DNA of 64,000 bases. Origin: Plumapathes pennacea (Eukaryota > Cnidaria > Anthozoa > Antipatharia > Myriopathidae). Location of the stretch: the NCBI GenBank assembly GCA_964036295.1, contig OZ038464.1:22890008-22954007 (forward strand), read 5' to 3'. Positions within the stretch are counted from its first letter, which is position 1. Each line of letters begins with the position of its first letter. The notes below the pieces were generated by a model, which saw nothing but the letters and a program-made list of their open reading frames with translations, did not search any database and was not told the DNA's origin. The translations under genes and the position numbers were made by a program. Below, piece after piece: positions 2,199 to 51,841 of the stretch.

Positions 2199-5100
2199 AT
2201 GAGGAGTGGACTTTTGCTTGTGTTTGGTGCGGCCTTGCTCTCGGCCACGCTTGGTTTGAAGGTACGTAAAGCGACGTTTATGTGATACTCGCAGGTTTTT
2301 CTATTCGCTTTTACTGTAGGTTTGTTTGGAATGTCGACATTTACAACTTTTCAACTGTAAGCGGCTCTTTGTCGCCAACACTAATACTTAGCTATCAAAC
2401 TTCAAAGAAATTGTTGTTTTTCCTATGAATGCTTGTTATTAGCTATCCAGTCATCCCTCAGTTTCTGTGCACATGGCAGAACACGTGACCCAAGCTTTCG
2501 CTGTTTAAACCAAATTCTTTTGAACCATGCATGAAGATGTAAGGATGGTGCAGTGCGAGTTAACCGTTCTGTCAGGTTTCTTTGGGGAATGTTATCCCTA
2601 CAGTATGGCGGTGTCTGAAACAATGAAGGAGGAAATTATAGTTGCTAAATTTTGAAAATATCTACATGAACTCCGCCTCGTGCGACTGCAAACTAACACA
2701 ACTGAAATACATTTTAATTTGTTTCATTCGTTTCAAGGCCGTTTTCTACTTTTAATCAAGTTTGCAATCTAAATTGTTAAATGTTTAGCAATGCGGGCTA
2801 AAACCAGTAAACGTTAGAAACAATGCAATTTTTGGATAACACTTGCATTTTGTCTCCAGTTGTCGGCGCGTGAAGAGAACTGGGAACACATCAAATTGAC
2901 TGATGGTATCTCCAAAAAAGAAACTGTCCGTATGTATCATTTGCTCTTCGGAGCCTTGTGGACGTGAGAGCCAATTCACCAACCACCAAACCTGAGTGAA
3001 AGTTGTACAATTTCTAGTGACGTAGCTTTACGCGTTAATATTGTTCCAGTTATAATTTTGGGCTAAAATTATATTGATAGAGAATTACGATTCTTCTGTT
3101 CAATCTCCCTGTCTTTATTTCTTTAAAAGAACACGATGACAATAAGAAATGGATCAACTTGGTTGGAGAATGGAAAGATTCGGGAAGTTCTTACTCGGTC
3201 GTCACACCAAGCGGTGGGTGGCATTATGGACCATCCCGAATATGGAGCAAACCTGTGCAGTCCGACAAATATGGTGAGCGTCTTTTTAGACTGAATTGAA
3301 TGTTGTGTCCCGTCGAGCTTGGATGTGAGCTAAGTTTATTCCAACGGTCTGCCGGGGGGTCTGGGCTCCAATCGGTCGAGAGGCAGAGCTCTGGGGGTGG
3401 GGGTGGTGGGAAATGGGTCAGGTGAAATTTACAGCTCTATCAAACTTTTGACAGAACCTTGCTATGTAATGTTATTATAACGTATGTGTGGGTGTTGGTG
3501 CATGAGTGTTTCGCTTCGTGTGTGTATGTGGGTGGGGAGTTCCGTGCGTATGCGTGTACTTTTATTCGGTCTTGCACAGCTTAGCGCATGCTTTATTTTG
3601 TTGTTTCCTTTATTTTGTTGTGTCCACTCTGATTTTCGTTGCGTTTTCCCTTATGCAGTGATAACAAGTCGTGGGAAAACTTCAGGTGGAAAAGGTTGCG
3701 GCCACGTGTTTAAATATCGAACTGGAAGCGTTTCATCAAACAGGTAGTTGCAACATTTGCATGTTAACCTGCATCCCGGTTTTACCCATTCTCGTTCTTA
3801 CACTTGACACATGTATAGTGCATGCATACACATACAGCATTTATTTGTCGAGTTACAGTGTCTCACTTGTAAGTGTGAGAGAAACAATACCAACTCACCG
3901 TTTACATTGTTATTTCGGCTTGGTCACCAAAGCTTGGGGTTACTTCCTATGGTCCAATTCTTTGTACATCTCCAGCTCAGGCAAAGAGGCAGCTCCAAGG
4001 ATTTCTTCTAATCACCAGGATAAATGGTACACTCTAAAATCTGTAGTCAATGGGACCAACGTGAAGATGTACATCGATGATGAGTTAGTCTACACTTTGG
4101 ACATGAAGGGAGAGGGAGCAGACGCCAAGAATGACAACTACGTGGGGCTGTGGTGTCATTCTTCAACGCAATGGGAGGGTGATAACTTCTCTGTGGGTCC
4201 GTCTGGTATGCCACGTCGTAGTTAGTGTGCGCTTGTGTGTGCAGGGGATTATTAATGGTTGAGTCGTATTTTTTACCAAGTAAACAGATGTTTCTCTCGT
4301 GAAACGAAGTTGCAACTTTTTGACGCAAACAAAAAACAAAAAACAAAAAAGTTGAGATGGGGCGGAGACATAAGGGGGATGGCCCAAAATACCTGACAGA
4401 AAAAACCGACATTGACAGGAAATTTATTAGGTTTAATAAGGTTTCTGTATTATTTTTTTCCAGGCTTGTCGGCTTGAATCTTTTTGTTAATAGATCACTG
4501 TCATTGATTTTAGATAACAAAAATTTCCTCTCATACATAATTACCTTTTTCTGTCAAACTCCTGGATTTCAGATCATTCAATTAAAAGAGAACTGATGAC
4601 CTCAACTGAAATCTGACAAAATGTATTTAGATTTTTCCCCTTGTGACAACTTCGAGCTGTAGACTTCAATAGCAGTCATTTTGTAGTTAATATATTTTAG
4701 ATACTGTATATACTAACACGAGTATTGAGTTACATGGCTTTGCATGCACAATTGATGGAACATGGGAAAAAAAGTCGCTGTTTCTGTCTGTCTCTGTTAG
4801 GTTCGTCAAAGGTGTGCCCGCGACTGTCGCTGTCCAGCGGTGTATACGTAGGCCCCAGCAGTTGCGCGCAAAGCAACAGTTCTATTGGTGCAATGTGCTC
4901 CTTCTCGTGCGCACGTGGTTATCGTCTTATTGGTCCACCGTCTATCAACTGCACCGGAAATGGCGCCTGGACTGACCAATCAGCTAACGTTACATGTGAA
5001 GGTAGGTTGAACACATGTGCAACGAAGTTGACAAAGCATCTGCAGGCAGTTAAAGTTTCAATGGATATTAAACAAGCTATTAGATAAAGATCTTCGAAGA

Positions 5101-8065
5101 GAGTAACTAATGAAAGCATCCTCGGCAACGGAATTGAGAAATGTAACTAAGATCAGCTGGATTTGTAGTTAGGTACGTACAAAGGATGTCATGTTGCTTC
5201 TTTGCGTTTGTATTTTCTTAAAACCGGATTATTTTTCAATCCTAGACATCAACGAATGTGAGCTGAATAACGGTGGTTGTTCGCATAAATGTCTCAACGT
5301 TCCTGGCAATTTTACCTGCTCCTGTCCTGATCCGGGGCTGAATCTGTCAAAAGATGGACGGACATGTGCTGGTAATAAAAAAAGAAAAAAAAAAAAGAAG
5401 AAAGAAAATGAATATTATTTTACTTTTTTGCTGCACAGTTTAGCTCAGATGTATGTGATGGTGTAGATGTATTATGTAGGTATGCAGGTATGTTGGTAGG
5501 TTGGTATGTAAGTAGGTAGAAGTCGGTATGTAAGTAGGTTTGTTGGTATGTAAGTAGGTGGGCGAGTGGTTCGAACCTAGGAATATCAGCTTCTTATCCA
5601 GTGTGATTTCCAGGTTGAGAGCAGGTTGGTAATCATAAATGGTTTTCTCAACAATTGCTTTTGTAACATTTTATAACAACTAAATTGGTATTTTTAATCC
5701 TAGACATCAACGAATGTGAGCTGAACAACGGGGGCTGTACTCATAAATGTGATAACGTTCGTGGCAGTTTCACCTGCTCCTGTCCTGATCCAGGGCTGAG
5801 TCTGGCAGATGATAGGCGCACGTGTGTTGGTATGTAAATATCTTTATTGTTATTTCTGTACTTTAACCCTTTCATTCCCAAGTTCAAAATGCAGACTCTC
5901 CCATCCTTTTAAGAGAAAACTGTAAGAGTGATGTAGTGAGAATTTATAGTTTAATCAACTATCATCTGAGCAAGGCATCAAAAACTAAGTTCTCCTTACT
6001 GTATGATATATTTGTGCTGCCGAAACTGAAGGAGAAAATTGAACTTGATCACTCTTGGGAGTGAAGGGGTTAAGAATAAAGTTTGAAATTGGAGATTGTG
6101 ATCAATTTAACGGCTTTCAGGTAGAACAAAGAGAGAATAACGGTACTGTTAAGGTATCCTTGATGTAATGACCATTGTTAAGTAAAGATTTAGAATGTAT
6201 GTGTACGTGTGAATGCACGAAGTAAGATGCAAGACATTCATTACCAAGGAGATTTGCTACATTCTCTCCTTGTTTTCTGAAAACGGTGTGCCACTATTTT
6301 CCTGCTGCTGTAGCTGCTGGCGTGACGGTCAGTTGTGGTAAAAATGACATGTCAATCACTCTGCCCAAGTCCCTCCTGCGCGGTCTGGACCGTCGTCATC
6401 TTCGTCTCCTGAACACCTCGTGCCAGGCCACCGAAACCGCCTCCCACTTTATACTCAAGACACCGCTGACCAGCTGTGGCACTACCACCAGCCATAAGAA
6501 TGGAGTGATTGTATTTAACAACAAGGTACTGGAGATCCCAGTCCCTAGCGGTAGACTTGTCACTGACGTACGGAAGGTAGAGGTTCCTTTTCACTGCTAC
6601 TACTCGGACCGTGGACTGGTAACTGGTGTAGGCGTCCAACCAAGCAGTAGAAAGCTTGTGTTTTCTGAGTCGGGACAAGGAAAATTTACTTTATCCTTGG
6701 ATATATTCTCATCAGACAGCTTCCAGGAAAAGTTCAATCGAGAAGACTTCCCTATCAGTGTCACCTTGCGAGCTCCGCTTTATATTGAGCTTGCAGTGCA
6801 CAATAGAGACAAAGAACTGTCGATTCTGGCGGAGACCTGCTTTGCTACTCCATCAGCAAATCCGTACACTGGGCCGCGATATGAGCTGATCACGGACGGG
6901 TGAGGTGTTTCCCTTAAAATACAGCGTGTTATAATATTTCTCGCCGTGTCAATAACTATCCTTTAGGCCTGTTTCAAACGTCGAACTTCACATGCGTCGA
7001 ATACAATGCATGAATGAAAATGGATGAAAATGGATAAAAATGGATTGTATACTCCAAGACTTGCAATAGAGTTATGTATTAAGTTATATCGAGTGACCAG
7101 TGCCCAGTTGTTCAAAGCACGATTAGGACAACCTTTGGTTAGGTATGAACTTTGTTGACATTTTTAGATGAGCCTGAAAAAATAGAAGTTTTTATTCACT
7201 AAACGACTTCTATGTTTTGAGCAAGAACAACTCTTTAGTTTGTCTTTAATTGAAACCTTGTAGCTTGTTAGCCACGGATTTGGCTAATCCTAAGTATTGA
7301 ACAACCAGGCCTAGATTATTTTATAAGATCACAAAGAACCAGGTCTTGGCCCACCCTCGATAACATTTCTTATCTTTTAGATGTGCAGCGGTAAACACAG
7401 TCAAGATTCTCAAGGCGCCCACTGTACAACAACAGCGGTTTAGCTCGGAATTATTTAAGTTTATGTCGGATCACCCATTTGTCTTCATTCATTGTCAAGT
7501 GAGAATCTGCATCACCGCTGACGGCCCCAATTCAAGGTGCGCGCAGGGATGCCGCAACAAAGCGGGCCTTGTCAGGCGTGACGTCAGCAGTGACATGAGG
7601 GGTGGTGGCATGTACTCGCTGGCTGAAGGCCCCGTCCTTCTGGAAGATAGACTGATGAAGACCCCAGACGTTGATCAGCTACGAGGATCAGGTTAGGCAT
7701 CGTTTCCTTCAAGCCCTTTTAGCCAATGGACATTCCATTTGACCAACAATATAGACTATGCAACCTCAATACACAGACCTAAAGTTAATGAAGCCGGACA
7801 TGTGCCACGAGGACCGCCTGTAGCATTGTAAATGTCTTTGGTTGATAATTTATTCACATTAACCGGGCGCATAGTTGCCCAAATAAATTACAAAGAGAAA
7901 TAAAATGTAGTAAACTGGATTTTTACGTTTTCAGGAATAAAGGCCCCCCTGCTCATAGTGATGGTGGTCGTGGGCGCACTGTACATCATGGGAGTGTCGT
8001 ACACGATCTTCGGGAAGACTGGCCGGTGCTCCAAGATTTTCGGCACCAATGGCTGCCGAAAATGA
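2199..8065 (+). CDS. ZP gene A: jelly-roll/sushi/EGF/EGF/ZP/TM matrix protein
   Basis: Eleven exons: 2199-2261, 2860-2929, 3130-3273, 3659-3743, 3919-4205, 4801-5001, 5246-5371, 5704-5829, 6314-6899, 7381-7691, 7935-8065; frames join to 709 aa. Order: signal peptide (1-20); a region of about 170 residues ending in a LamG/concanavalin-like jelly-roll signature ([30 protein letters not shown]); sushi (about 217-283; [15 protein letters not shown]); two calcium-type EGFs opening DINEC (284-367); ZP domain (368 to about 640) with the expected ZP-N and ZP-C cysteines; hydrophobic TM in the last exon; short Cys-containing tail. Unlike A' and B2 it has no R-x-K/R-R site, only LVRRD. ZP proteins polymerise into extracellular matrix; that role here is inferred. 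Exon 5 lacks an AG acceptor (separate entry). Exon 2 has no counterpart in A'. Closest paralogue: A' at 44962. Confidence 0.85.
3858..3919 (+). other. Non-canonical splice acceptor (GG for AG) before exon 5 of ZP gene A
   Basis: By homology with A' (acceptor TTTTGCAG before 47911), exon 5 of gene A should begin at 3919, but the two bases before it (3917-3918) are GG. The tract TTATTTCGG otherwise looks like an acceptor. Two upstream AGs keep the frame: AG at 3857-3858 would add 20 residues and AG at 3878-3879 would add 13, with no stop in either case. So the gene may use a GG acceptor, an exonised upstream acceptor, or carry a base error in the assembly. Confidence 0.6.
5460..5570. repeat. 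GTATGTAAGTAGGT-type microsatellite in intron of ZP gene A
   Basis: Imperfect tandem copies of a 12-16 bp unit around GGTATGTAAGTAGGT lie in the intron between the two EGF exons. The units resemble splice-donor sequences (GGTATGTAAGT), a curiosity without evident consequence. Confidence 0.6.
5863..6073. mobile_element. MITE-like element, family 1 (TTAACCC terminal inverted repeats)
   Basis: A 211-bp element with about 20-bp imperfect terminal inverted repeats, starting TTAACCCTTTCATTCCCAAG and ending as the near-complement CTTGGGAGTGAAGGGGTTAA, lies in the intron before the ZP exon of gene A. A second copy at about 32160-32488 shares internal sequence and is interrupted by another element. 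No coding capacity, so non-autonomous. Confidence 0.6.
7102..7311. mobile_element. MITE-like element, family 2 (GGGCCCGGTTGTTCAAAG ends), degenerate copy
   Basis: The ends read GCCCAGTTGTTCAAAGCACG and, in complement, GGCCTGGTTGTTCAATAC, matching the family seen at 32285-32431, 45397-45636 and 50401-50619. It lies in the intron after the ZP exon of gene A. No coding sequence. Confidence 0.5.
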
Positions 8066-11000: not shown

Positions 11001-13738
11001 ACATAGCTGCTCAGTGATCGTCGAAATTCACCGTTAAACTCTGCGTGTCTTTCACATCAACGACCCCAAGTGCCTTGACTGATCAATCATTCGTGGACTG
11101 ACTTTGCAAATATCTGCACGTACATAGTCATAGCTTGTGATGACGTTAAAGACATCCGTTTGTCTGATCCGTTTTATACGCATATCATTTTGGTCAAAGT
11201 GCTTTATTATTCACTCCAAGCTGTGGTGAAGAATTCAGCCGATATAGCGCGGCCACAGAAGAAGAAAACTGGCACTCCCAGGTGAGAGAGAAAGTGAAGA
11301 GATAAGAAAAACGAATAGAAAAGAAATGGATAGACAGTCTCGCAACAGCTATATTTCCAGTCTTACTTTATTTACAAATGAGGAACTTCGAAAGCGAGGG
11401 GGAAAAGAGGGCTACTGTTTGCATGGCAGCCATGTTGGTTTTCTAAAAACGATACAGTTTTTGAACTAACAGCTTTTATTTCTCAGACGATTGAAATAAC
11501 TTCTTGCACACCAACATGGCAAACTCTCTGTAGACAAACTGATAGGATAAAAAAAACTAGATGCAAAATAAGGAGGGAAGGCTAACAAAAACCACGAACT
11601 CGGAAAAGTAAACCAAACAGAAAACTAAACAGACGGCGAAGTGGCCACCGAACGTTTCCGCAACTAATCTGTCACATTCATGAGTATTGTGTTTCGTAAA
11701 CTGAGATTCCTGTCCGAAGGAATCAAAGTGAAACTGTACTCGAGTCCGATATATAATACTGTTTTCAGAGTTTACGTCCGTCGATCGTGTCTGGGCATGC
11801 ATGAGGTACCAGCTGAAGTTACGATTCAAGGTTGAATTCCTGTAACCATGCCGGAAACAGGTGGGAGTTAAAAGTCTTCGCAGAGCCACAAACTGCGAAC
11901 CGCACGACTGACGCACTAATTAGTAAGACGGAAGCTTTCTGGCAACACTGGAGTGGAAAAAACACGAACTGTTGCCAAACACCTTATTTATTACAATGTG
12001 GCTTAGTTGGAAAACGAAATAATTTACTAAAACCCTTTCATTGTCCTGGGTTTGTATTTTGTCATTCGGTGACGTCTTAATAGGCACAGTAGACTTTGCT
12101 TGTCCAGGACTGCATCGGTTTGGTTCAGCCATGTCGTTCCGCATGTCGCTATCGCAGAAAGACCCAGAAAAGCAGAAGGATGATTGTCGCGTGACTTCAA
12201 ACCGCAAAAAAAAAAAAAAAAAAAAAAAAGATTGCTGCAATTTGATATAGTTATTCTTTGTGATAGGCTAATCCGCAAAAGATTTTATATTTTAAAAGTT
12301 TGCATAACATTTCATGTCTTGAATAGTTGTGAAGAAACACTTGGAAAACAACCCGCTTCGGCATGTGATCGACTGAATGAAAGATCTGGAATTAAAAAAA
12401 AAGAGCAATACATTAATCATCTGCAAGTAATAAGGTCTGGGACGGAAGTGGCATGTTCAATGGGGCTCACATCAAAGTAACCGCACCTGTTTTGAGAGCA
12501 ACGTTTGATGCCTTGATGAGTCAGGCTGACCTGCATGGGAACAGTGTTTTGTTTCACACGCTGAGATCTGCTTTGTTGACTTTCTAGAGAGTTGCGTAAA
12601 TAGAAAATATAACCTACACAAATTCCTGTCATATATATACTGTATATGACGAGGACGTATATTTGGGCAATCGTCGCGGTGGTGCATGGCGCATGTTCCT
12701 GCCGAAAAGCTTCGCACCTCGCGAAGAATTTTCAATTATACGTTGCGGCTTTCGAAATGACCGAAATCGGAAGGCCATCCGATTTCCGAAATTGAAACTG
12801 CCCTACCGGATCACGAGCAGAAACGTAAACAATGCGAGTTGAAGTTCATGTCTATGATGAGAGTATTTATGACGGCACAAAATTCCATCTTTTCCGTGGT
12901 TAAACTTTTCACTTTGTTACCCATATTTATTTCGATAAACATCTTGTTGATTGTCGGTGTAATTGACTGCTGCCAAAGCGAACGCGAGAACCGATTGGTT
13001 AACCTTGTTTAATTTGCGCCAATGAGGAAAATGTAAGACCTGTCATTACCCTTGGATCCTGTGGTGTTGCATACCATACCCCATGGTCGAGTGCAAGATG
13101 ATATGGCTTGCGAGGAGTGTTGATTTTAGAGGTGTTGCGCTACGGTTTCTTGTTATTAGTTTTCTTCGCAAACAGACATACAGTATTATAATCGGAACGG
13201 TCTTTCGTTGGACGACTAAACCGACACCGCAGTTTCAACCCTCTGGCACTTTAAAGCGCACATGTTGATTGTGGACTGATTGCTGCGCAAAGATCGATCC
13301 GCCCGGCGCCCGCCATCCGAAACAATGATGTGGTTTGGAGACCAACCCCTTCGGTATTGACCGCGCTTTTAATTCATTCACCGTCAATGATTTATATGCA
13401 TTCTGTTGTTTTGGTATATGTAAGTGCCCGGTGGTTGTACGTATTCACGCGAACTTCTCTTTATTCTTTAGGCTTCGCTCAAGTGTATCAAACCGCGAGC
13501 GATAACTGCCAGTGACACACGACTCGATTCGGCGGTCACTGAATTACCACGAAACGTCTTCACGGATCATAACTTGGATTTATCGAAAAGACTTTATAGT
13601 GGTATACCTCTTTTTCGGCATACTGTACTTGTGACTTTGTATGAGAATCACGAAAATCAAACGTGGTGCAGCGACGGACGACTGAGACCTTAAAAAAGGG
13701 AGTCAGCCATTGTTAAAGCAAAACACTCTCTGGTCGAC
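8066..13738. other. Intergenic region between ZP gene A and Gli
   Basis: No convincing exon is visible; open frames here lack splice context or recognisable motifs. It holds a probable poly(A) signal for gene A (AATAAA at 8814-8819), a purine-rich stretch at about 8530-8680, a 9-bp-arm hairpin at 8911-8941, an exact GACCACCCA at 9332-9340, a dispersed repeat at 10672-10895 and a poly-A run at about 12206-12229. The 3' part should contain the Gli promoter and perhaps non-coding 5' exons. Confidence 0.5.
10672..10895. repeat. Dispersed repeat with internal ACCCTATTTCAGACCAAAA units, copy 1
   Basis: Five or so degenerate copies of an about 35-bp unit built on CCCTATTTCAGACCAAAAT are followed by ATACCCTTTGGGGT and GGCTCATATATGGGAGTCC. 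The same order recurs at 16616-16885 in a Gli intron. The frame through it reads as a pseudo-protein (repeated Gln/Lys/Pro pieces) and should not be taken as a gene. Confidence 0.6.
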
Positions 13739-28800: not shown

Positions 28801-29246
28801 GATAGATCTATAGCGTTTCTTATTCACGAGTTGGCTCACAGGAGCTTTGATTTTGACTTGCAGTTAATTTGATTTGGCGTGTATAGTCACTTCCCCTCCT
28901 CATTTGATTTTACGAAGGGCTATTGTTCGAAGCATTTTCTTTACATTGCTTGGAATATTCACATCGACTTATTGCTGGTACAGCTTATTTTTCAATGTTT
29001 CGCCTCTGCTCTTTATTGTGTTTGTGTCCGTTTGCACATGCCCACCATGGCCTGGTTACTGCATTTTAATCTTTTCCTTTTCGCCAGGTTTCCAAAACTG
29101 TGACTCCCGATACGAAGCCTAAGAAGAACCGTCATGTCTTGTCCGAAAAGAAACCAAAGAAAGTTTCCTCGGCAGTGAAACAGAAGAACAGAAAACGGCG
29201 ACGATCAGCCCCAGGCATGACCAGCGGACTGGGCCATGAAGACTGA
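25812..29246 (+). CDS. Unrecognised protein with paired CxxC motifs and a basic C-terminal tail
   Basis: Eight exons, 25812-26000, 26134-26187, 26360-26422, 26587-26658, 27032-27121, 27534-27655, 28159-28471 and 29088-29246, give 353 aa with phases matching throughout. I do not recognise the family. Visible: a CELCGR knuckle encoded by exon 3 and an ACQDCQ knuckle by exon 5, about 50 residues apart, which could form one split zinc site (treble-clef or HNH-like) with helical sequence between; a predicted helical stretch (LLQQAVAAAHALHVL); then a long Lys/Arg-rich, low-complexity tail with several nuclear-localisation-like clusters (KKSKKTKRGK, KKSKKAKRNR, KNRKRRRS). No signal peptide or TM. 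A nuclear nucleic-acid-associated role is a guess from composition only. Two in-frame ATGs (25812 and 25896) both have good context; the first is used. Intron 5 holds an AGATCTTGC repeat. Confidence 0.75.
27298..27455. repeat. AAGATCTTGC-type minisatellite in an intron
   Basis: Imperfect tandem copies of about 10-12 bp units (AGATCTTGCA, AGATCCTGCA) fill most of this stretch of intron 5 of the CxxC gene. The unit is nearly self-complementary, so the transcript could fold into many short hairpins. Confidence 0.65.
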
Positions 29247-37403: not shown

Positions 37404-40400
37404 TTAGCTTGTCATGAGTTGATAGGATGGCGGTGCACGTTTCATCAGCTTCCTCACGCGCATGAGGCCAACAAGGGCGAGCACAGTAGAAACAGCCATG
37501 ACCACCAACAAGACGCTATGGACTGGGTTCCAATCTGTAGTAAAATGGAGTTGAACACTGTAAGAGTCACGTTCAAATTTGTTGGCCATTGTTTTACTTC
37601 AATGGCTCCTCTACGCCTGACATTCGTCTAGTTTGTCTTATTTTTCACACTTGTACCTGCTTGTCGTTTTGTATTGCCGCTTGTCTGTTCGGCCATCAAT
37701 CTGCTTATCCTTGCTTGCCAAGTATGTATGTTTTATTATCTGCAAGTTTCCGTCTGTCCTTCTGTCCATTGTCTGCTAAGCATGACTGTCTTCCAGTCTG
37801 TCTGCTTGTCCGTGTCTCTTTCTTTCTCGCTCTACTTGTCTGTCTGTCAAGTACAGTATGTCTGCCCTCCTCTCTGGTGGTGTCTGTTTTTCTGTCTGAC
37901 TATCTTTTCGTCTGTCCACTGCTGTGTCTACTGGTCTGTCAATTGTGTTTTTCGTTTAGTTGACTTGATATGAACCTGTGTAATTTTCATTTGCCTGCAT
38001 GTTAGTTTGAACTTGACCAGCTGTTTGTCTGTCAACCCATTGCTTATTTGTTCCTACCTGTGCTGGACCCCTCTTTCTTGACCTCATGCACTTTCTCCTC
38101 TTTATTGTCCTCGCCTTCAGCCTGATCCTCCTGTGACTCTTCCAAGGAAATCGTGTTGTCATCACTGGAACTCAGCGCAAACGGACCACGTGACAACATG
38201 TAGGTGTGAAGCACTGCGTCCGTCTCATCCCGTTTGCCCCTAGAGGGTGACTTCTTGGCTTCAACGTCCGAGCTCACCGGAGGGTTAACATTAAGACCCG
38301 GGACACAGCCTTTGGCGCAGCGCGAGTAGGGGTCGTCTGCCTTGCATACGATGACGCTGCAGTGGATGTAGACAAACGGAAAGTCGCCGACAAACTTGAA
38401 CGCCTCCACGCTAAATCGCTGCCTCTGGCCGGAATAGGGTTCTTCCATTTTTGTCGTAGAGTCCACAGCACACCTGAATAGAAAGGGCGGTACATTGGTC
38501 AGGTTAATTTGCTTAACACAACAATTTTGTGTGTATGCATATGTGTAATTATGTATATATGTATTTGTGCTTATTTCTGTGTCGTATGTTTGTATGTGTG
38601 TTCCTGTTTTGTGTGTGCATTTCATATATACCAGGAGATGTGTCCATATATCGATCAGCGGAATGCTACTACTTGTAAAAACTAGTTAGAGACTGCGTCG
38701 GTGTGGAGATTAAACAGCTAAAAGTCGATGTAGGAAAGCTAAAACGTTTTAAAAGCTGACTTCTCGAGCGTGGGTTGACGTAGACTGCACAACAGGCGTT
38801 TTTCTTTACGGGAAGCGCGCGCGAATGGCGAGGCGAGCCGAGAAAAAAACAAGCCGCGCGGACAAATACTAGGGTCTTTTGCGCAGGCTAGGGTTTACGG
38901 CGCTGTACTTGTGGGACCGACAAAGGGTTAACGCTCGAAATGTCAGCTTAAATTTAATAACGGGGTTTAGCTTTCGCACGTCTACCTTTAGTTGGTTTAT
39001 CATACGTTTTATCAATCAACCAGTAGGTGTACGTGTACCTGCCCTCCAAAGCAAACATATTCTACAGCAATTGAGCTGGACCTCGTCAGGAGGAAGTGAA
39101 CGATTAAAATCAATAATGACATTTAAAATTGCCAGATGTTCTCTTAATAGCTTTTGTGTGTATAATATTTCCCCTGTACCTCTACACGGTGTGACGTAAT
39201 GAATCCTGTTAATGTTTAACAGCTTACCCCTCATGAATGAGCTCATGTCTGAACCTGCCCGCTTTGTCGTGGTCCGCCATTGGAGTAGAGCAACAGTTCC
39301 CGGCCTGCACCACAAGCCCCTGGTCCAGGGTTGCGATGTTCACTTCAAAGTAAAGACGTTGTCTATACGACACCTCCACCGGAAAGTCGTTTTGTGTGTA
39401 CGCGGACTTGAATAAACCGCCATCATTTAAAAAGTCCAACTTGACTTTAAATCGGCCATACCTGTGAGTGGAGAGGGAACGGTGTTAAGGTCAGTGGCGT
39501 CTTTGTCGTTCTATTTTATTGTTGTTTTTGTTGTTGTTGTTGTTTTGCTTCCATTGTATTTCTTGAAAAGACTGGACAGTAATAGTTCTAAATAAATGAG
39601 TTTGGATTCAAGTAAAATATACAAGGAAGAAATATAGGGAGCAAGACTGGTGGCAAACAAACCTTGCGAAAAAACTAGTTTCAGCTAAGCAAAATGGCAA
39701 TAAAAGCTATGGAATCCGTGGTAGGTTGTTTGCAGTTGAGTGGGCTCAAAAATGATACTGATACCATGCTACTTTTAAGCTAATGGATCGTTTAACGAAA
39801 GCAGCGGAAGTTGCTGTTGCAACTTTTGTTTACTTCTGTTCCGCCGCATACGTTCTCTCCACCACATGTCTCTCAAAACTACTCAACTGCGCTTGCGCGA
39901 CAACAACGGCAGCATAAAAAAAGAAACAATTGCCGTACAGTTGCCTACCCTTGTTCTTTTAAAAACAGGTTGCTGCTCTCTGGTTCATAACCAACAGCTG
40001 TGATGATGCCATTGTTGAGGTAGTAACAACAGAAAGGAATGTTGAACTCGTCCTTCCCAACACGAGTGATGAGTCCGCTCTGCTTCACCGATTTCTCCTG
40101 CACTTTGTTGCTGTACACCAGGAAGTCCTTGGTGCTGCGTCTCGTGGTGCCACACCCATCCAGAGCGGTGCTAAACGAGTAGTGGGTTTCGTTCTCGGAC
40201 GCTTTGCATGACGGGTCCAACAAACGAAGGTAATCCCCCTGCAGGTCACGCAGAGCCTTCTTGGGAATAGTGACTTCCATTGAGTGTTCATCGCAGTTCA
40301 GAATCAGGCCGACGGCTGGTTAGGAAAGAAAGATACAGTTCTCTGGTGTAAGTTCTCTGTTACTTTAAAAAGCGATTTTCAGGTGACCGTCAAACTACCA

Positions 40401-43400
40401 AAAGAGCAATTACAGTGACAATTACAAAGGCTGCCAGAAAACACGTTTAACTAACCAGGAGCCAATTAAGCAATTTACAATTGGTTTTACTTGAACAGTA
40501 GCCCAATTAGCATTGAACTTATGGTTTACCTCTGCAGTTGTGGTTGTCGTCCGACAGCACCAGAGGATCAGGACAAGTGCACTCGTAGCTTCCCTCTGTA
40601 TTAACGCACTGGTGACTGCAGCCTCCTTTATCCTTTTTGCACTCGTTGATATCTGAGAGTAAAAACGGCGAGTTAGAAATATTTTAAATAAGCGTACTTA
40701 AACACACACGCAGTTTGTATTTGGTGACTTGAATGCGGGGACTTGTCATTATTTCAAAGTGCTTTTCACTGAGTCTCCACAATGTAATTCATAACACCTG
40801 AGGCTGTTGGTTGAAAGTTACCGCAAGAAGCCAGCGGCCCATACACTCGTACAAATTCTTCCTATTTGTCTCTACTGTATGCATGTTTTCTACTTCTGTG
40901 CCTCTATTTGTATCTCTGTTTCATTCTGTTAGTCTTTCTTTATGTCTGTTTGCATGTATGAGTTCTTTCCGCTTCTGTCTTTGTTCGTTTGTCAGCTCTG
41001 GTTTTGTATCTCTGTTTCATTTTGCTAGCCTGTATCTGTATGGCTGTGGTTTTCGATAGTCATTCGAAGACCGACCTATGACACAACGGCACACACTATT
41101 TTTGCAGTTTGCCTGGTTACCTTTGCAGGTCACAGGAGCGTGAGGGATAGACCATATGCCGCCATCCAAACACTTTTTGGACGGCGGCCCCACAATGTGC
41201 TGTCCCGCCGGGCAATCAAAGCTGCATACAGTCTCGGAGGGGACACTGACATTGGACGCACACACTGGCGGGGACACTATGACGGCAGGTCCAACTCTAG
41301 GAGGTTTAAGAGGAAGACACGGGCTTTCTGAAAAGACAAGGATTGGAGTTTGTTATCTGATCTAAAGACGATAAGTCTGCTCAAGGAGTTGGACTGAAAA
41401 CACTGCAGAGGTAAGAAGCAGATTATAATTTTTTGTATATCTCGTGTTCTTCTTTGAGTTAATGAGTGTAAAGGTCTTCGAAATACAACTGGATTGAGCT
41501 TTTCCGAAACCGTTTGTGAGCATGTTTAACGTCGTAAAGATAGTGTAAGCATTTGCTACGACGAAGGGGTTAAAACATATCCATATATCAACCGTATAGG
41601 GTTCACACATTAAACAGAGCAAACTAGTTCTCATGGGGACTAGAATTTCACTTTTGATTGAGTAATTCTCTTGGGTTTTGTTTTGACCTGTGGCGTGTTC
41701 ATTACCAATGAAAGGAGCCGGTCTTCGAGCGTGTCTTGGGCATACCAGAAGTTGAAACAATTATTAACCCAGCGACCAAACAAACACGCTGGCTAAAGTT
41801 AAAGTGCTGCCTTAGAACAACATTTAACATTTTTCTGGGGGAGGGGGTGAGTGAATATGTAAACGTCAGCAAGAATTTAGTAGGATAGGGTGAGGGAGAA
41901 GTCAAAACCCCCCACCTAACCCATGTGATAGAGCCCCCTTTTGTCTATTAATTATTTAAACGCTAAGCTCTCCGATCGGTAAAGATCAACAAATCGCACT
42001 TTAAATTTTTGACGTGATTCTGCGGCTGTCAAACGGTCATAATTTGTGGGAGTCTTGTTCCAATAGAGGATTTAATAACTATAACTCAGTATTACTTTGA
42101 TGTTTAAAAGCCGGCAGAGGGATTTAAACCAAACATACTACAACTGATATGTATAGTCAAAAACCAAAGTTTGCGCTAGCAAATTAAAACTATTTTTCGA
42201 AAACAGTTCATGTATTTTCAGAAATTTGCGTGCTACTTTTCGACACTGCAATAGGAGCTCGTCGGCCGCACAGTGTTATCTTGCGCAAATTAATGGCTTC
42301 TTAATCACACGCGCTAAAGTCGTGCACCTACCGAACGGGTTTAGTTACCACATCAGACAGTTTGATACATAGGTCAACCGGATTTTCGCAGTAATACAGC
42401 TATACATTTGTGTTAGGTGGAGTAGACACATTTTTGCGCATACAGTCGCTTTGCTCTGTTATTGATGCAAGCAAACAGCGAATATAAGAGTTGAAAAAAT
42501 ATATATATGTGATAAAGAGTTGAAGCAGTTTACAGGTCGAACAACATGCTTATAGGCCTCAGCAATCAATGGGCATTGGGAAGGACTTTGAACAAGCAAA
42601 TGTTTTGGAGGTTAACTACATTTAGAAGGTAAAGGGAATTTATCAAAGCTGGCGAACCTATATTTTGATTTATAGTTTCGCTATCTATCTTTACTGTAAT
42701 CGTAAGTTGTAATGGACGATAGTTGGAAAATAAATTTCCTAGGGTCTCTATTGATATTACACCTCATGAAGTCACCACAATTGCAACCTCACGCAGTGGC
42801 TTAAAAATTCTTTATGCGGATCTAAAGCTCTCCATGCTATGATGTTGAAAAATTTAAAGTTGCAAAGAAAAGTCATTGAAGCATTTTTTGCCAAAAGAGA
42901 AAAAAAGAATGTCTTGCGTGGGATTTTCGTTTGAGCTTTGTCTTATTCAAACAACAATTTAAAGGTACTATAATTTCACACACAGTATATATACTTGGAA
43001 ACACAGCTTCGTTTCGGCGTTACGACAGCCATTATAAGGCTTACACGGGATTTAATGCTTCTCCAGTATCTTCTCCAGTGAAAAGTACAATATTTTGGAC
43101 ATATATTTCTTATGCATATAAGGGATATGATGGGACAACAATTTCAGTCTCTCAGTTTATAATTTGAAACTTGCAACTTAGTGTTGTCAACTTTGTGGCG
43201 AACTAAGAGAGTTTAACTTTGGTCATATAGCACATCATTTTGGAGAAATTCAAGATATTAAGTTCCTGTAGTCCGGTACTAAGTTAAGTTGGAATAAAGT
43301 TTGCAGTGCTTTTAAAGCAGCTTGCATGCACTAGCTGTTGAAAGTGCTATTGTGCTGAGAATTTACCTGTATCTCCCTGATCCACGTCTTGTCCTCTTAC

Positions 43401-43439
43401 CACAAGAAATACCGAAACCAACAGAATTACACGAAACAT
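37404..43439 (-). CDS. ZP gene B2: sushi/EGF/ZP/TM protein
   Basis: Seven exons on the minus strand: 43439-43367, 41327-41121, 40652-40530, 40315-39949, 39461-39228, 38473-38058, 37534-37404; 516 aa. Order: signal peptide (1-17; [14 protein letters not shown]), sushi (about 25-93; [23 protein letters not shown]), calcium-type EGF opening DINEC (94-134), ZP domain (135 to about 400) with CGTT, FCCYY, NCCSTP and HCSVIVC landmarks, a canonical furin site RGKR (413-416), the family motif LSRGPFAL, an acidic linker, then a TM ([18 protein letters not shown]) and a short tail. The jelly-roll region is absent. Unlike its three relatives, the ZP domain is split by an extra phase-2 intron (39462-39948). 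Matrix role inferred from the family. Confidence 0.85.
37740..37950. repeat. TCTGTC-rich low-complexity stretch in intron of B2
   Basis: Degenerate CTGTCTGT repeats fill much of the intron upstream of the TM exon. They create Cys/Val/Ser-rich pseudo-frames on the plus strand. A similar stretch is at about 40850-41030 in another B2 intron. Confidence 0.6.
41328..43366. other. Large first intron of ZP gene B2
   Basis: About 2 kb with no coding exon seen. This is where a jelly-roll region would lie if B2 had one. I searched for the family motifs (LWCHS, AWGYY, SGxGCGHxFKY) on the minus strand and found none. Confidence 0.5.
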
Positions 43440-44961: not shown

Positions 44962-47900
44962 ATGAGAAACGTTTGTGATAACTGCATTTTTCTTTTCGCC
45001 GTTCTGTTTATCTCGATCATACCAGCTGAGGGTAAGTGTATGGCGCAGCAAGCATTGTCTTAGACCGTGTTTCTAAGCCACATTTTTTACCATAATAATT
45101 TGGTGAACAATTGAATGATTCAAAGACTTATACAGTCACAAAATGTGGAGCAAATACTCTTCCTTAGGCCCTGTATATATGGAGAAAAGTTGTCCCGCCA
45201 CTCAGGGTCACCCTGTGTTATCAACCGAGTATCCCTGCCCCCAGGTTCACCCTGTCTCCCGAGGCAAGTTCTGATTTGTCATGTAAACGCCCCCTTTGAT
45301 TTATAAATTTGTTGGCGCGTCCAGGGTGAAAGAAAATTAGGTATCACTGTTACGTTCTGTAGATTTGTTGCTTCAGCTTAGGGTTCTTAAACTTCAGGGC
45401 CCGGTTTTTCAAAGCACGATTAGGCTAATCCTGGATTAGGTCTAAACTTTCTTGTCATTTATAAGCCTGAAAGTGTGAAGGTTTTGTCCACAACGACTTC
45501 TTAGATACGTTTTAAGCTGGAACAAGCTCTTAAATCCTTCTTTGAACAAAACCATGCAGTTTATTAGCAGAGAGGTTGAGAGAAATAATTTCGGTAGTCC
45601 TACATTAGCTTAATCGGCGTACGAACAACCGGGCCCAGGGAAACAGTAGGGGAGGGATACAAGAAACAAAACTACGAATTGGATAGTCATTTTTCGCGTA
45701 GGTCCTTGTGAAGGCGGTGTGCGGTAATTGATCTCAACCAACATGCTTTCATCATTCATTGATTGAATTTTTGCTTGAATCTGGTGCTTTTGAAGCCAGT
45801 GTCCGTTTTTCTGAAAGCCGCACGTGTGGTTCAATAACCTGAATTAAAACAGCAGTGAGTAAATCAGACTGAATTTTTCCCAAATTCCTTGGGTTTTGTG
45901 GCAAACACTTCGTAGAGTGACAAACACACTGTATCAAGACGCTTGTCAGTAATTCAGCTGCTTGTGTTTGCCCCGTTTTTATTATTTGTCACAGCTATAT
46001 CTACAAGCAAAATATATAAACATTAAACTACTTTTGGCGAGGAAATATGCACGGATAATTGTTCGAGGATATTATCTGTTCCGAGAAGCGAACAGTTGCC
46101 CGAGAGCGAAGCTCGAGGGCAACTGTGAGCTTCGAGGAACAGATAATGTCCAAGGACAATTATCTGTGCATATTTCCGAAGCCAAAAGTAGTTTATTGTC
46201 TTTATTATCCTTCAAATGTTTCCTCTCGCAGTGCAAATAACGGCGCGGAAACTGTGAAGCTTTTTAGTGCTCTCTGGAACTGCTTTTTGACCAATAAATT
46301 GATGTCCTCCTCAGTAGTCATCTTGTAATGATTTTTGTGACTAAAAAAATAGAACTGTGTTCGGATATTGTCAACAAACAGCGTTAGTTCGCCAGGCGGG
46401 GGTTATTCGCTGATAACGTCCGCTCACGAGCGGACGTTATTCGGTCACGTGTCACGATTCTACCAATCACGCGCGGGAGGAAATATTTGATGGGTCATAA
46501 ATATAAATAAAACGATGGTGTACGCAACCGAGGATTCTTGCGTTTGTCCTTTGTCAAAGAGATTATCATGTCGAAGCAGTTAACGCTGGTTTTTACACGA
46601 ACATAGCAATTAATTAACACAGTGCATTTCTTCTCTCTCTTCTTTTAGCCTCATGGAAGGATCTGGCGGGAACCTGGACTGATCAGGGGAATGCGTGGGA
46701 AGGTACTTCTCCCCAGGTGGGGAACAGCGTGTGGCATTTCGGTCCTGCAAGACTTTGGTCCATTCCTGTGAACTCAGGAAGCTATGGTTAGTCCCTACGA
46801 GTTCATCAGTGTCCAAACTTTTCTTAATCGTTAATTCTGAAAACGGACCGATTTTCGCTACAACATTTTTTCTTTGGTACGAGCTGTAACCAGCCATGCA
46901 AAAGGTTATATATTGGAAGGGATTATTTTTTCGAATTTTAACAACTAAAACAACAGAGATCCGCGGCCAAATAAGAAAGGATGTTTGTTTATTTTTATGC
47001 GTATTACATTTTACGTTAGTAAGTAAATAGTCTTAAAAGTGTCTTGAATTACTGATGATGCTGCTCAACCCATCGCAGTACTTTTTCAAAGTGACTGATG
47101 ATGTGTGCAGGTCGGTTGCTCTAAGTGAATACACCAGTCATATTGTGCCAATAACATTTATTATCATTCGATACTTTTTTCCTCTCTTTCGATTGGCCGA
47201 GAGACTGCTACGTCACCTGCAAATAACTGTTACAAATACGTATCTGCTCATGCGCCCTACTGTTTTCGGCGTGTCAACTGCAAATAACATTCAGCTTATG
47301 TGCAGTTTTCTCCACCTGTTTAAACATGGCAGCTCGTTTTCGCTACAACGCGCGCTTCCCAACACATTTTACGCCAGATAATTTGTGAAATGCAAGCTCA
47401 CGCGAATAGTAAAATAATTATTGAACTCGGTTATCGCAAAATATCGTGATTTGCCAGTGTCTCGCAAATCAATTATTTGCCTCTGCTTACCGCATCTGCT
47501 CGCCACTGGCAAATCACAGTATGTTGCTCAACCTCGTCCAATTATTGCTTATTAGTTACACTCTTTGTCTCGTATGCGTACCATTACTCTCTCTGCTTGT
47601 GTTTGTCTTATCAAGTGGTCACCAGTCGTTTATACATGCGGGGAACAGCTGGATGCGGTCACATGTTCAAGTATAAGAAGGGAAGCGTTCGCACGCCATC
47701 GTAAGTACTTTGCGGTGATGTACAAGTTGTATTCATAAACTTAGATACTTTAGTAAACCGTCACCAACAAGTCTTGTGTGATTGTTTGATAGTGATTATT
47801 GGTGGCTAAAAATGTGTCCGCTTCGCTTCACACTCTAGGCCTCGTTTTGAAATACAGGCAACATGCTTATGGCTAATCACTGGATTAATTCTGTGACTAC

Positions 47901-50900
47901 TGTTTTGCAGCCGAGTCACCAAAGCATGGGGATATTATCTGTGGTCACACCGTTACATGTACATAACTTCTTCTGGCGCAGAATCATCTCCCAGAATCAG
48001 TTTTTCTTTCTCTTCTGGCAAATGGTACACGCAAAAGAGTGTTGTGAACGGGAAAAATGTGAAAATTTACATTGATGACAAACTGGTGAAAGAAATAACA
48101 ATGTCAGGAGAAGAAGCTGATTCGAAAACTGACAACTATGTTGGGTTGTGGTGCCATAATACAATGCGCACTAGAGGAGACAATTTTAAGGTCACTGCAG
48201 GTATAGTGAAAATGTTGTGTGTGTATATATCTGTGTGCGTGGGTTTTTGTAAGTGCGTACTTGTATGACTGTCAGTGCATCTATGACCGTACTGTACGTA
48301 CGTGTGCGCTAGTGTATGCAAGTTTGTATGCGTGCGTTTTGTGTGTGTATGTCACACTATGTAAAACTTTTTCCCAGCTACACATGTTCATCCACTACAG
48401 CTGCCTATTTTGTTCCATCAGTAACTTGTCCTCAGCTGTCCCTATCCGGCGGTGTGCACGTAGGCCCCAGCAATTGTGCTCAAAGCGACAGTCGTATTGG
48501 TACAATGTGCTCCTTCTCATGCGCACGTGGCTATCGTCTGATTGGTCCACCTTCTTTAAACTGCACCGGTAACGGCGCCTGGACTGACCAATCAGCTAAC
48601 GTTACCTGCAGAGGTAGGTTCAAAGATTATTTCAGTTTCATTAGGTGTTGTCATGCAATAACTCCTTTCTTTCAACTGTGTTCTGGCACGAAGGACTACG
48701 GTATGAGGCAAGTCGCTGAGATAAGTGTACTGTAAAGATTAATGGGACTCAAACCAACTACAAGTTTGCATTTATCTTAGGCAATTATAATTTTGATAAG
48801 AATACGCTAGAACCTTCCGTAAGCGACCACCCTTCGTTCGGTATTTAGTAGTCGCTAACGGGAATTTCTCACCATGAAGGCCTGAGTGAGATCCAGCTTT
48901 GAGTCACAACCAGTGTCAAATAATGGAGTTTTCTTGAGTGAATAACACCTGGAGTTTTAAGAAATCAACCTTGTGTCCTGTTGCAATTTATATTACACAT
49001 GTTATTTGTCTGGTCCGGTTTCTGCAAGGAAGTTAGTCTTTTCTGCGAAAATTGCTCTTTGGAAGCATAGGGTGGTCGCATAATACCGGAGGCGAAAAGC
49101 AATAGAAAAAATCAAACGGTGGTCGCGGTCGCTTACGAGAGGTTTCACTAATAGTAATTTGACTGAGAAACCAATCGGTAATTTGGTTACTGGTCGCTTA
49201 CAGAAGGTGGTCTCTCAGGCAGGCATGTCAATTTATTTGTTTTGTGCATAAGAAGGATTTTATAAGGTCGCCATTATACCCATTTTATTCTTTTTTTTTT
49301 TCTCCTCAGATATTGACGAATGTTTGGCAGACAACGGAGGCTGTAGCCACTTGTGCACCAACACTCCTGGGGCATACCGCTGTACATGTCCAGACCCAGA
49401 ACTCGGTCTTGCTGCTGATAATCACACGTGTAAAGGTAAACGTTTTATTTCGTCAGCATTACCAAATTGCAGGTAACCAGTGCTCGAATGTTCTCTTGGA
49501 CGACTTCAAATATTAGTCTGATCGTCCGGGACAAAATTATCGGGCAACCCAAGAAGAATCCTGATATAATTTTTGTCTTCAGGTATTCGTCGGAATACTG
49601 AGCAAAAATAAAACGTCCCCATATGGAAACATTTCCTGTATCTGTCGAGTCAAATGTACATGTTCTCACGCATGCTTCGTTCGGTCATGATAGTAAATCT
49701 GAAAATAGTGTCAATTAATTTTTACTGTCCGTGATGGTTCCATTGGATACGATGACCTTTTTGTGTAGGTTGACACGTTCATCTGTTTTAGCTGACGGAG
49801 TGACAGTCAATTGTGGAAAGGACGACATGTCAATCACTCTGCCCAAGTCCCTCCTCCGCGGTCTGGACCGTCATCATCTTCGTCTCCTGAACACCTCTTG
49901 CCAGACCACCGAAACTGCCTCTCACTACACACTCGAAACACCGCTGACTGGTTGTGGCACCACCAGCAGGCACACTAACGCAGCAGTAGTCTACAGCAAT
50001 AAAGTCGTCGAAATGCCAGTCTCCCAGGAAGATATTATCACACGCGTGCGAGAGATCGAGATTCCTTTCCATTGTTACTATGGTAACGATGGAGTCGTAT
50101 CAGCTGTGGGTTTTAAACCGAGCAACAAGAAACTCGTGTTCTTAGAGAACGGACAAGGAAACTTCTCGCTATCCCTTGATATTTTCCCTGATAAGCGATT
50201 CGTAGTTTCTTACAAAAACGCCGACTTCCCCGTTGATGTTGTGTTGAGACAGCGGTTGTACTTCCAAGTGTCTGTGTCGTCAGCAGACAAACGACTGTCC
50301 ATCATGGCGGACAGATGCTTTGCGACCCCAACTCAGGACAGCAATGGACCCACAAAATACGTGCTCATTAGCGGCGGGTGAGTTTAACTGTAATAGGTCT
50401 GGGCCCGATTGTTCAAAACTTGCTTAAGCAAGCCCAGGATTAACCAAACCAGCACACTACAGAGTTATGACCAAAGATTCACTGAAAAGTATGTTTTACA
50501 TTCCGACGATGCTGTGTTATTAGCATAACTTCTCATTTTCAGACACAAATATGCCACAAAAGTTTAGATCTAATTCATGATTAACCGGCTAAGTAATCTA
50601 ACTTTGAAAAACCGGGCCTAGAACTGTACCCCAACGGACAGGAGCAGGCGTTTCGAATTTGCCTGGTTTCGTGCGCGAAAATTAGTTGGTCTCATTGGTC
50701 TCACTACAAATGGATTTAAAATGCACTGTTGAGCAGGTTATTTGATAATTAACAGCCATCATCATCAAATCGAGTGTTATCATAAAATACCCTTAATATT
50801 CTGTCCGCTTTTGTCGTGAAACATCATCTACATAAATTCCATCAGATCAGGTGTTCACCTCAGAAAAGGCGATCTCCCGGATGTAAATGTAAACATGAGC

Positions 50901-51841
50901 TCATTTAATTTCCACATTCAGTCTGTTTTTTTTTTTTTTTTTTTTTTTCCTAACTTGTGACTTACCGTACATGTTATGTGAATACTTTTTGTTGTTTCAC
51001 TTTAGCTGTTCCAGAGATGACACCCTCAAGTTTCATTCACCGCCTTCTACCAACAAACAACGCTTTAGTGTGGAGGCCTTCAAGTTCATCGCCGATCATT
51101 CCCTGGTCTTCGTTCATTGTCACGTTAAAATCTGCAACGCTACTGACCCCAACTCCGGATGCGTCAGGAGATGCCCATCACGTGGTAAACGTGCCGCTGA
51201 TCACATGCTACGTGATGAAAAGCCGCTGTACTCACTATCTGAAGGACCTTTTTTCCTGAACCAAGAGGATAGTGAAGACGAACCAGCATTCAACCTCGTC
51301 AGCAATGGTAAGTTGTCAAGGGAGAACTCATTTTGAACACCCTTTCGAATGTTTATCAATGCCTAAAGAAAAGTGTGTTTAAGTTTAGTAAAATGTGCTG
51401 CGACGACGAATGTTTGAACTCATGGCGACCGTGTTTTGGGGTTGCCTCAAATTTACTTTAATCTCGACCATTCGACCTTCTCACAAAGAAACAACTGCTC
51501 ACTGAACCAGAACGTATCATTTTCTTTAACTGTTACATTTGAAAAGTAGTATGTTGTACATACGCAATTCCTTCGCATTTCCCCATTAAGTTCTCTCTCT
51601 CTCTCTACACACACACAACCCACCGCGACAAAACGTGGCTTGCAGTTTTTAAGGCAGGCAACATTATTACAAATATTTTCGTTGCTAAAATCTATTCTGT
51701 GCCTTCCTACCATGCACAGGGTCCTCCACTGCCCTCCTGCTGGTTGCGCTGTGTGTGATTTGTTTGGCCGGGGTGGCCATCATGGTGCGCAACATGAAAC
51801 TGCGCAAGAAAAACGAAGGTTACACCTTACTTCATGAGTGA
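44962..51841 (+). CDS. ZP gene A': jelly-roll/sushi/EGF/ZP/TM matrix protein
   Basis: Nine exons: 44962-45031, 46649-46786, 47616-47700, 47911-48200, 48422-48613, 49310-49435, 49792-50377, 51006-51307, 51720-51841; 636 aa, all phases consistent. Order: signal peptide (1-23), about 170-residue region ending in the jelly-roll signature ([30 protein letters not shown]), sushi (about 195-258), one EGF (259-300), ZP domain (301 to about 550), furin site RGKR (555-558), family motif [10 protein letters not shown] ([17 protein letters not shown]) and a cytoplasmic tail ending GYTLLHE, which contains a YxxL-type sorting motif. Closest relative is gene A; their ZP exons are the same length (586 nt). 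A' has one EGF where A has two and lacks the exon 2 of A. All acceptors are AG, including the one altered in A. Confidence 0.88.
45397..45636. mobile_element. MITE-like element, family 2
   Basis: Begins GGGCCCGGTTTTTCAAAGCA and ends as near-complement GAACAACCGGGCCC; internal GATTAGGCTAATCCTGGATTAG. In the first intron of A'. Same family as 32285-32431. Confidence 0.6.
46025..46194. mobile_element. Foldback inverted-repeat element in intron 1 of A'
   Basis: Arms begin AAACTACTTTTGGC and end GCCAAAAGTAGTTT, and continue through GAAATATGCACGGATAATTG and GATAATATCTGTTCC-type pairs to a GAGAGCGAAGCTC centre. About 80 bp per arm with a few mismatches. No coding capacity. Confidence 0.65.
46413..46440. 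repeat. Perfect 12-bp-arm hairpin
   Basis: ATAACGTCCGCT, a CACG loop, then AGCGGACGTTAT. It stands alone between a foldback element and exon 2 of A'. Could be a relic of a mobile-element end. Confidence 0.6.
47412..47547. mobile_element. Imperfect inverted-repeat element in intron 2 of A'
   Basis: The outer arms AATAATTATTG...CTCGGTT and the matching CAACCTCGTCCAATTATT, and inner arms GTGATTTGCCAGTG and CACTGGCAAATCAC (exact 14-bp complement), give a 136-bp foldback-like element next to exon 3. Confidence 0.5.
48808..49210. mobile_element. Dispersed element with GTAAGCGACCACC / GGTCGCTTAC inverted ends
   Basis: ACCTTCCGTAAGCGACCACC on the left is repeated inverted as GGTCGCGGTCGCTTACGAGAGGTTT near 49120-49145 and again as GGTCGCTTACAGAAGGTGGTC near 49192-49212. 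It lies in the intron between the sushi and EGF exons of A'. No coding sequence. Confidence 0.45.
50401..50619. mobile_element. MITE-like element, family 2
   Basis: Begins GGGCCCGATTGTTCAAAAC and ends CTTTGAAAAACCGGGCC. Located immediately after the ZP exon of A', the same relative intron as the 7102-7311 copy in A, although the internal sequences differ. Confidence 0.55.

Follow-up and report, generated by a model that had tools for sequence, protein, structure and literature searches.

What do four ZP-domain genes lying near one another in an antipatharian coral encode, and do they derive from a single ancestor? The question is raised by a 64,000-nucleotide stretch of Plumapathes pennacea DNA (assembly GCA_964036295.1, contig OZ038464.1, positions 22,890,008 to 22,954,007, forward strand), which we call the window and in which positions are counted from the first letter. 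We analyzed the four genes, designated A, B1, B2 and A', and the modules, their order, the intron phases, the motifs and the family membership were all recovered by the tools described below. The locus is a real, fairly ordinary local family, a well-formed example of an already known kind, and the four gene products are probably type I membrane-anchored precursors, resembling uromodulin, of an extracellular filament made of ZP modules.

All four genes were modeled by hand, exon by exon, with the likeness among the four as guidance, and the joins were checked by script. Because the models were hand-built, steered by mutual likeness and made without a transcript, they are predictions. Each gave an uninterrupted spliced reading frame, and among the 33 exons and 29 introns in total, donors were GT at 29 of 29 sites and acceptors were AG at 28 of 29. 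The start and stop coordinates given for the genes in the initial annotation were reproduced by the spliced models: A (2199-8065, plus strand) has 11 exons and 709 amino acids, A' (44962-51841, plus strand) has 9 exons and 636 amino acids, B2 (37404-43439, minus strand) has 7 exons and 516 amino acids, and B1 (30163-35600, minus strand) has 6 exons and 583 amino acids. The annotation had also assigned the four genes the same intron phases. This was true of the core, where the introns that flank the sushi and EGF exons, precede ZP or precede the exon for the transmembrane (TM) segment are of phase 1 and the one that follows the main ZP exon is of phase 2, but each of three genes has extras: in A, an extra exon comes after a signal exon that ends in phase 0, B2 contains an additional phase-2 intron within ZP, and B1 has an additional phase-1 intron together with a private Lys-rich exon.

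The four protein models were scanned with Pfam profiles, applying the family cut-offs. ZP-C (PF00100; E 5e-26 to 3e-33), ZP-N (PF23344; E 4e-13 to 1e-16) and an FXa-type EGF module exceeded the cut-off in all four proteins. ZP-N and most of ZP-C are encoded by a single exon in A (exon 9, 6314-6899) and A' (exon 7, 49792-50377), the ZP of B1 lies at 32747-33362, and that of B2 is divided between two exons (39949-40315 and 39228-39461). EGF is encoded at 49310-49435 in A' (exon 6), at 40530-40652 in B2 and at 33893-34012 in B1, while A has two EGF exons (exons 7 and 8, 5246-5371 and 5704-5829) that are 79% identical to one another. Sushi was above the cut-off in A (exon 6, 4801-5001, with six cysteines) and in A' (exon 5, 48422-48613), and the two exons share 83% amino acid and 82% nucleotide identity. 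The B2 sushi (41121-41327) fell below the cut-off (E 0.024), yet it is 44% identical to that of A and 41% identical to the counterpart in A', and its six cysteines align with theirs; the proposal that B2 keeps a sushi module was thus borne out by alignment, the profile match itself being subthreshold.

Hydropathy analysis revealed a hydrophobic N terminus (the signal exons of B2 and B1 lie at 43367-43439 and 35537-35600, respectively) and a single C-terminal TM segment in all four proteins. Judged by hydropathy and sequence, the membrane end is a TM segment with a cytosolic-type tail and not a glycosylphosphatidylinositol (GPI) anchor. The order in every protein is ZP-C, a basic site, a hydrophobic motif containing Gly-Pro (the GP motif), and TM, and FKF occupies the FxF position of ZP-C in all four. 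In each, the GP motif occupies the position expected of the external hydrophobic patch of ZP-module proteins, and it may be the counterpart of the uromodulin patch. Thus, the set of features that had been predicted to be common to the genes, namely, a signal peptide, EGF, ZP, a post-ZP hydrophobic motif and TM, was present in all four by Pfam, hydropathy and motif checks. The ZP-C end with FKF, a dibasic site (LVRR), the GP motif and TM are encoded by exons 10 and 11 of A (7381-7691 and 7935-8065); the corresponding exons 8 and 9 of A' (51006-51307 and 51720-51841) carry RGKR at the basic site and end in the cytosolic tail. In B2, the ZP-C end, RGKR and the GP motif lie at 38058-38473 and TM plus tail at 37404-37534, and in B1 the ZP-C end lies at 31929-32122 and TM plus tail at 30163-30317. 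The RGKR of A' and B2 matches R-X-K/R-R. A Y-x-x-hydrophobic motif is found in the short tail at the C terminus of A' (YTLL; gene end 51841), B2 (YQLM; gene end 37404) and B1 (YTPL; gene end 30163), and the only one in A (YTIF) adjoins its TM segment. We assume that this tail motif may serve as a sorting signal.

These features recall a published system. In uromodulin, the FxF motif is important for polymerization, the cleavage site is followed by a hydrophobic strand that blocks polymerization until it is cut, and filaments are joined from membrane-bound monomers, with evidence given in PMC7737619. The best sequence relatives in the PDB of the ZP regions of A' and B1 were uromodulin-named chains (including 28yj, by its title a vertebrate egg-coat filament) and GP2. 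A Foldseek search with a low-confidence AlphaFold2 model of the A' ZP exon gave 24 hits at E<=0.001, every one of them a ZP protein. In the reading that we favor, the C-terminal TM segment would hold the precursor at the cell surface, and the hydrophobic strand bearing the GP motif would prevent the ZP module from polymerizing. A protease would cut the basic site between ZP-C and this strand, the strand would depart, and the ZP-N/ZP-C modules would then link head to tail into filaments. From these, the N-terminal parts would project as arms, consisting of the lectin-like region (described below), sushi and EGF in A and A', sushi and EGF in B2, and EGF only in B1. The product would likely be a coat, at the surface or apical, whose binding arms, being of several kinds, would serve adhesion, protection or capture. 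We infer the cleavage, the polymerization, the partners, the site and the use.

Reports on possible cnidarian relatives were drawn upon for the tissue in which such a coat might occur. In Acropora, transcript A2, with EGF and ZP, came from pool A (PMC3204972), presumably that of the planulae. The same paper describes a ZP transcript located at the oral surface and, at a later time, close to the septa. A second Acropora sequence, egf2ZPm of A. millepora, has two EGF modules, ZP and a membrane anchor, is an exploratory candidate for larval competence, and was likened to uromodulin by its authors (PMC5755313). In the coral Euphyllia, a transcript with Notch-like EGF, ZP and TM is elevated in premature and mature ovaries (PMC7579821). 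Among anemones, a uromodulin-like gene of Nematostella is reported at the aboral pole and in wound ectoderm (PMC4229989), uromodulin is reported in adult Nematostella mesoglea (PMC12549020), and uromodulin-named genes are reported in the pedal disc of Exaiptasia (PMC6626399).

Several observations weigh against the proposed filament precursors. A (LVRR) and B1 (VMKR) possess dibasic sites only, without the full R-X-K/R-R; this consensus need not be strict, since uromodulin is cleaved by hepsin (PMC7737619). The AlphaFold2 model of the A' ZP exon had a mean predicted local distance difference test score (pLDDT) of 46, with moderate confidence in the ZP-N half only, and one exon of gene A has a GG acceptor. 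A ZP module is not evident from the descriptions of the uromodulin-named genes of Nematostella (PMC4229989) and Exaiptasia (PMC6626399), and 'zona pellucida' has 0 occurrences in both papers. Finally, any tissue assignment would draw on papers about other species.

Are the four genes one family? Their ZP domains are 56% identical between A and A', 46% between A' and B2, 45% between B1 and B2, and about 41% in the other pairs, versus 19 to 28% between any of them and uromodulin, GP2 or the vertebrate egg-coat chain 28yj. A tree was built from the four genes and these three outgroups, other ZP families being left out. A phylogeny placing the four domains in unrelated families, which would contradict a common origin, was not obtained, because the ZP modules were mutually closest and were split from the three outgroups with support of 100/100; B1 grouped with B2 at 70/72 and A with A' at 32/57. 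These comparisons, made on sequence, supported the view advanced in the initial annotation that the genes form one local family that has grown by duplication with gain or loss of modules. The annotation had also arranged the genes in a series of stepwise module loss, and this was not demonstrated: B1 carries an exon absent from the others, and the search brought up no remnant of a sushi or lectin exon that had been lost. With only three outgroups and weak branching within the family, we do not assign a direction to the module changes. A tblastn search of the window with the four models gave 93 hits at E<=1, all within the four genes, and revealed no fifth copy; 8 of the 104 hits at E<=10 lay off the exons (best E 0.91) and were dismissed as chance. 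A scan of genome contigs with the ZP exon alignment found 33 stretches that fit the pattern, 0 of which were confirmed as relatives.

Noticeably uneven divergence was seen between A and A'. In 25-codon windows, their DNA identity was mostly about 45 to 70% outside two patches, falling toward the C terminus, while the sushi exons reached 82%; in the main ZP exons, a window close to the beginning of ZP-N reached 96%. Gene conversion was assessed on the codons of identical residues, leaving out Met and Trp, in 20-codon windows with 10,000 permutations for each of the six gene pairs. The best window of the A-A' pair contained 19 identical codons, a value reached by 31 of 10,000 permutations (a figure uncorrected for the six pairs). 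In each of the other five pairs, more than 2,700 of 10,000 permutations reached the observed value, and conversion was not supported there. These data suggested gene conversion as the simplest reading of the A-A' patches, with strong constraint on the DNA as the alternative.

The region that sets A and A' apart spans approximately 170 residues over three exons and occurs in these two genes only (A exons 3 to 5, 3130-3273, 3659-3743 and 3919-4205; A' exons 2 to 4, 46649-46786, 47616-47700 and 47911-48200). Its Pfam matches were all subthreshold, the best being the 3-keto-disaccharide hydrolase family (E 0.002), the GH59 lectin domain (E 0.002 to 0.007) and laminin G (E 0.03 to 0.04). These three families have a common concanavalin-like fold. 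The region of A' also matched unrelated families (NusG_II, E 0.056; DUF1977, E 0.1), and in a whole-protein scan of A', NusG_II (E 0.0051) outscored the lectin families. A PDB sequence search with the region returned 8 sequences at E<=10, led by Pikachurin (E 0.012) and followed by neurexin chains, with two bacterial effector sequences among them (E 0.43 to 0.47). An AlphaFold2 model of its largest contiguous exon, from A' with A as partner, was poor (mean pLDDT of 44) and is given no interpretation. Since the Pfam matches are subthreshold and accompanied by unrelated ones, the model is poor and the PDB matches are weak, we use the bare label "lectin-like", which these matches weakly support, and nothing beyond it. 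The initial description of A and A' as adding sushi and a jelly-roll-like region was therefore correct for sushi, and only subthreshold matches speak for the jelly roll.

The third lectin-like exon of A (exon 5) provides the single exception to AG acceptors. Its conserved acceptor, 3917-3918, reads GG in an otherwise good context (score 5.8), and of the in-frame AG alternatives, the best would start the exon at 3976 (score 6.0, 19 codons shorter) and the next at 3859 (score 0.7, 20 codons longer). The lectin-like region of A may thus be spliced at another site, or the GG may reflect a substitution, an allele or a sequence error. The same acceptor would fit a family in which one or more members, A above all, are decaying, such that the working family is smaller, and A moreover lacks the full furin consensus and has a C-terminal tail unlike those of the other three. 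We consider decay very improbable: A shows no stop or frameshift over 709 codons, nine of its ten acceptors read AG, and the tenth has in-frame AG alternatives.

The private exon of B1 (exon 5, 31084-31686, minus strand) comprises 201 codons that are found in none of the other three models. Up to VMKR it encodes 144 amino acids, 35 of them Lys, with a net charge of +18 and an isoelectric point (pI) of 9.97, and the GP motif (VEISKGPFVV) follows; the pI of the whole B1 precursor is 9.21. VMKR is the dibasic site nearest upstream of the GP motif, and another dibasic site (CKRPK) precedes the Lys-rich stretch. A cut at VMKR would leave a strongly basic tail on mature B1, while a cut at CKRPK would remove the stretch, and a retained basic tail is therefore less sure. 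A more specific idea, which we put forward tentatively and hold to be rather doubtful, is that the locus encodes one mixed filament toolkit, in which four subunits would share a ZP polymerization module, the ZP-N half would be kept compatible by conversion between A and A', each subunit would contribute a different arm, and the basic Lys-rich tail of B1, once uncovered by cleavage, would serve to bind acidic glycans, mineral or microbes. If true, this would be a single-locus counterpart of the heteropolymeric egg coats. Were the genes coexpressed, they would constitute a compact locus showing a constant polymerization module with swapped arms, and a defined subunit set for asking which coral and anemone ZP proteins go into the matrix of the skeleton, the mesoglea, the surface of larvae or the coat of wounds.

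Do the genes form a cluster? A and A' are on the plus strand and B1 and B2 on the minus strand, and an inversion within the cluster is plausible. B1, B2 and A' come one after another, about 1.8 and 1.5 kb apart, the intervals having been covered by the tblastn search. The genes had been described as a four-member cluster, and they are indeed near each other, but they do not make an uninterrupted array, as other frames separate A from B1. GLI-type zinc-finger exons lie at 15530-17092 (plus strand; best PDB match a five-finger GLI, E 5e-34, with Pfam in agreement), and long open frames at 13694-14869 (296 residues scanned, with no Pfam hit) and 17229-19103 may belong to the same GLI-type gene. 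A frame at 25619-26047 (minus strand) has at its end a domain of ribosomal protein L36 (Pfam E 1.3e-16), probably of the mitochondrial type, and another at 23041-23463 (minus strand) matches the SPMAP1-like family (sperm microtubule associated protein 1; E 1.6e-11). At the left edge, the end of a Lys/Glu-rich frame, seen by eye, occupies 1-1026 (plus strand), running off the window, and contains a 99-bp tandem repeat (5-377, 3.8 copies). Downstream of A', a tandem array of 22 copies of a 334-bp unit, with 96% matches, extends over 54613-61977. A long GAT/ATC microsatellite (30838-31000) is situated shortly past the Lys-rich exon of B1, a dispersed repeat is 72% identical between an intron of A (7098-7272) and one of A' (45395-45568), and a GGGCCCGGTTGTTCAAA-like repeat core recurs, by eye, in introns of B1 and A'. 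The dispersed-repeat pattern had 0 matches in viral contigs.

What, then, might the products be used for? The initial annotation linked the locus to biomineralization, that is, to an organic matrix secreted by skeleton-forming cells and helping to build the coral skeleton. A ZP protein is indeed among the core skeletal matrix proteins of scleractinians (PMC8382919, PMC4890752), and in Acropora, tissue close to the developing septa expresses the ZP transcript B26 (PMC3204972). The Acropora skeletal ZP protein G8HTB6 is like the four in having a signal peptide and TM (PMC4043741), with ZP and a cleavage site between these (PMC4890752). At 414 amino acids with TM at 366-388, however, it is shorter than any of the four and has not much space for arms of the kind that A and A' carry, and its table row names no EGF or sushi, although such a row may not list domains (PMC4043741). 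Moreover, the skeleton-less anemones Nematostella and Aiptasia are named as having counterparts in a supplementary alignment legend (PMC4890752). The coral EGF-ZP transcripts considered above came from larvae or ovary, and the uromodulin-named anemone genes from wound ectoderm or mesoglea. Thus, a specific link to biomineralization was not supported, and nothing in the analysis connects the locus with the making of a skeleton. Published coral and anemone genes named for ZP or uromodulin are associated with larvae, epithelia, wounds, ovary and mesoglea besides skeleton, so that the skeletal reading has several competitors, at least one of them better supported, and we regard it as having little chance of being right.

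The ovary is the setting of another explanation, in which the cluster would be expressed in oocytes and its arms would bind sperm, as part of an egg coat or of gamete recognition. Ovaries of nemerteans contain ZP proteins with one or two EGF modules, a consensus furin cleavage site (CFCS) and TM (PMC11673550), the Euphyllia transcript mentioned above is elevated in ovaries, and contact plates of Aurelia aurita oocytes bind antibodies against the ZP protein mesoglein (PMC3504029). We consider this explanation unlikely, as two Acropora reports place EGF-ZP transcripts in larval stages (PMC3204972, PMC5755313) and no pointer to gametes was seen in the sequence.

The diversity of arms on a common filament module would suit the capture of several targets, and the lectin-like, sushi and EGF arms could bind bacteria or algae on the gut or surface epithelium. 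Uromodulin filaments bind uropathogens (PMC7737619), and a uromodulin-domain gene and a ZP gene belong to a subset of genes for which positive values of expression are listed in symbiotic Anemonia (PMC3141003, from table rows without their column headings). The handling of microbes or symbionts is a possibility that we find doubtful, because the lectin-like region is below the Pfam cut-offs; it also overlaps with the membrane-anchored filament precursors that we favor, as it concerns the use of the filament and not its mechanism.

How the locus compares with known systems may be summarized as follows. Aurelia mesoglein is, like B1, a basic cnidarian ZP matrix protein (pI 9.03, versus 9.21 for the B1 precursor); unlike B1, it has a DSL-like domain before ZP, and its description in PMC3504029 mentions no Lys-rich stretch. 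Gene A resembles Acropora egf2ZPm, compared by description, in having two EGF modules, ZP and a membrane anchor, while the descriptions of egf2ZPm and ZPm (PMC5755313) and of A2 (PMC3204972) make no mention of sushi or lectin-like parts. In the open-licence PMC literature, no paper was found that joins ZP domain, sushi and EGF in Nematostella, or zona pellucida, sushi domain, EGF-like and lectin in coral, which does not imply absence in print. Relative to uromodulin and GP2, the four proteins differ in having TM instead of GPI, in carrying sushi and lectin-like arms instead of D8C (none was among the Pfam matches at E<=0.1 in the four proteins, the existence of a Pfam model for D8C being unchecked), and in their ZP identity of 19 to 28%; an RGKR-type site occurs in two of the four genes, unlike in hepsin-cut uromodulin. 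What they have in common with uromodulin and GP2, taking the plan of uromodulin from PMC7737619, is the succession of EGF before a full ZP-N/ZP-C, FxF, a putative basic cleavage region, a presumed counterpart of the hydrophobic strand and a membrane anchor.

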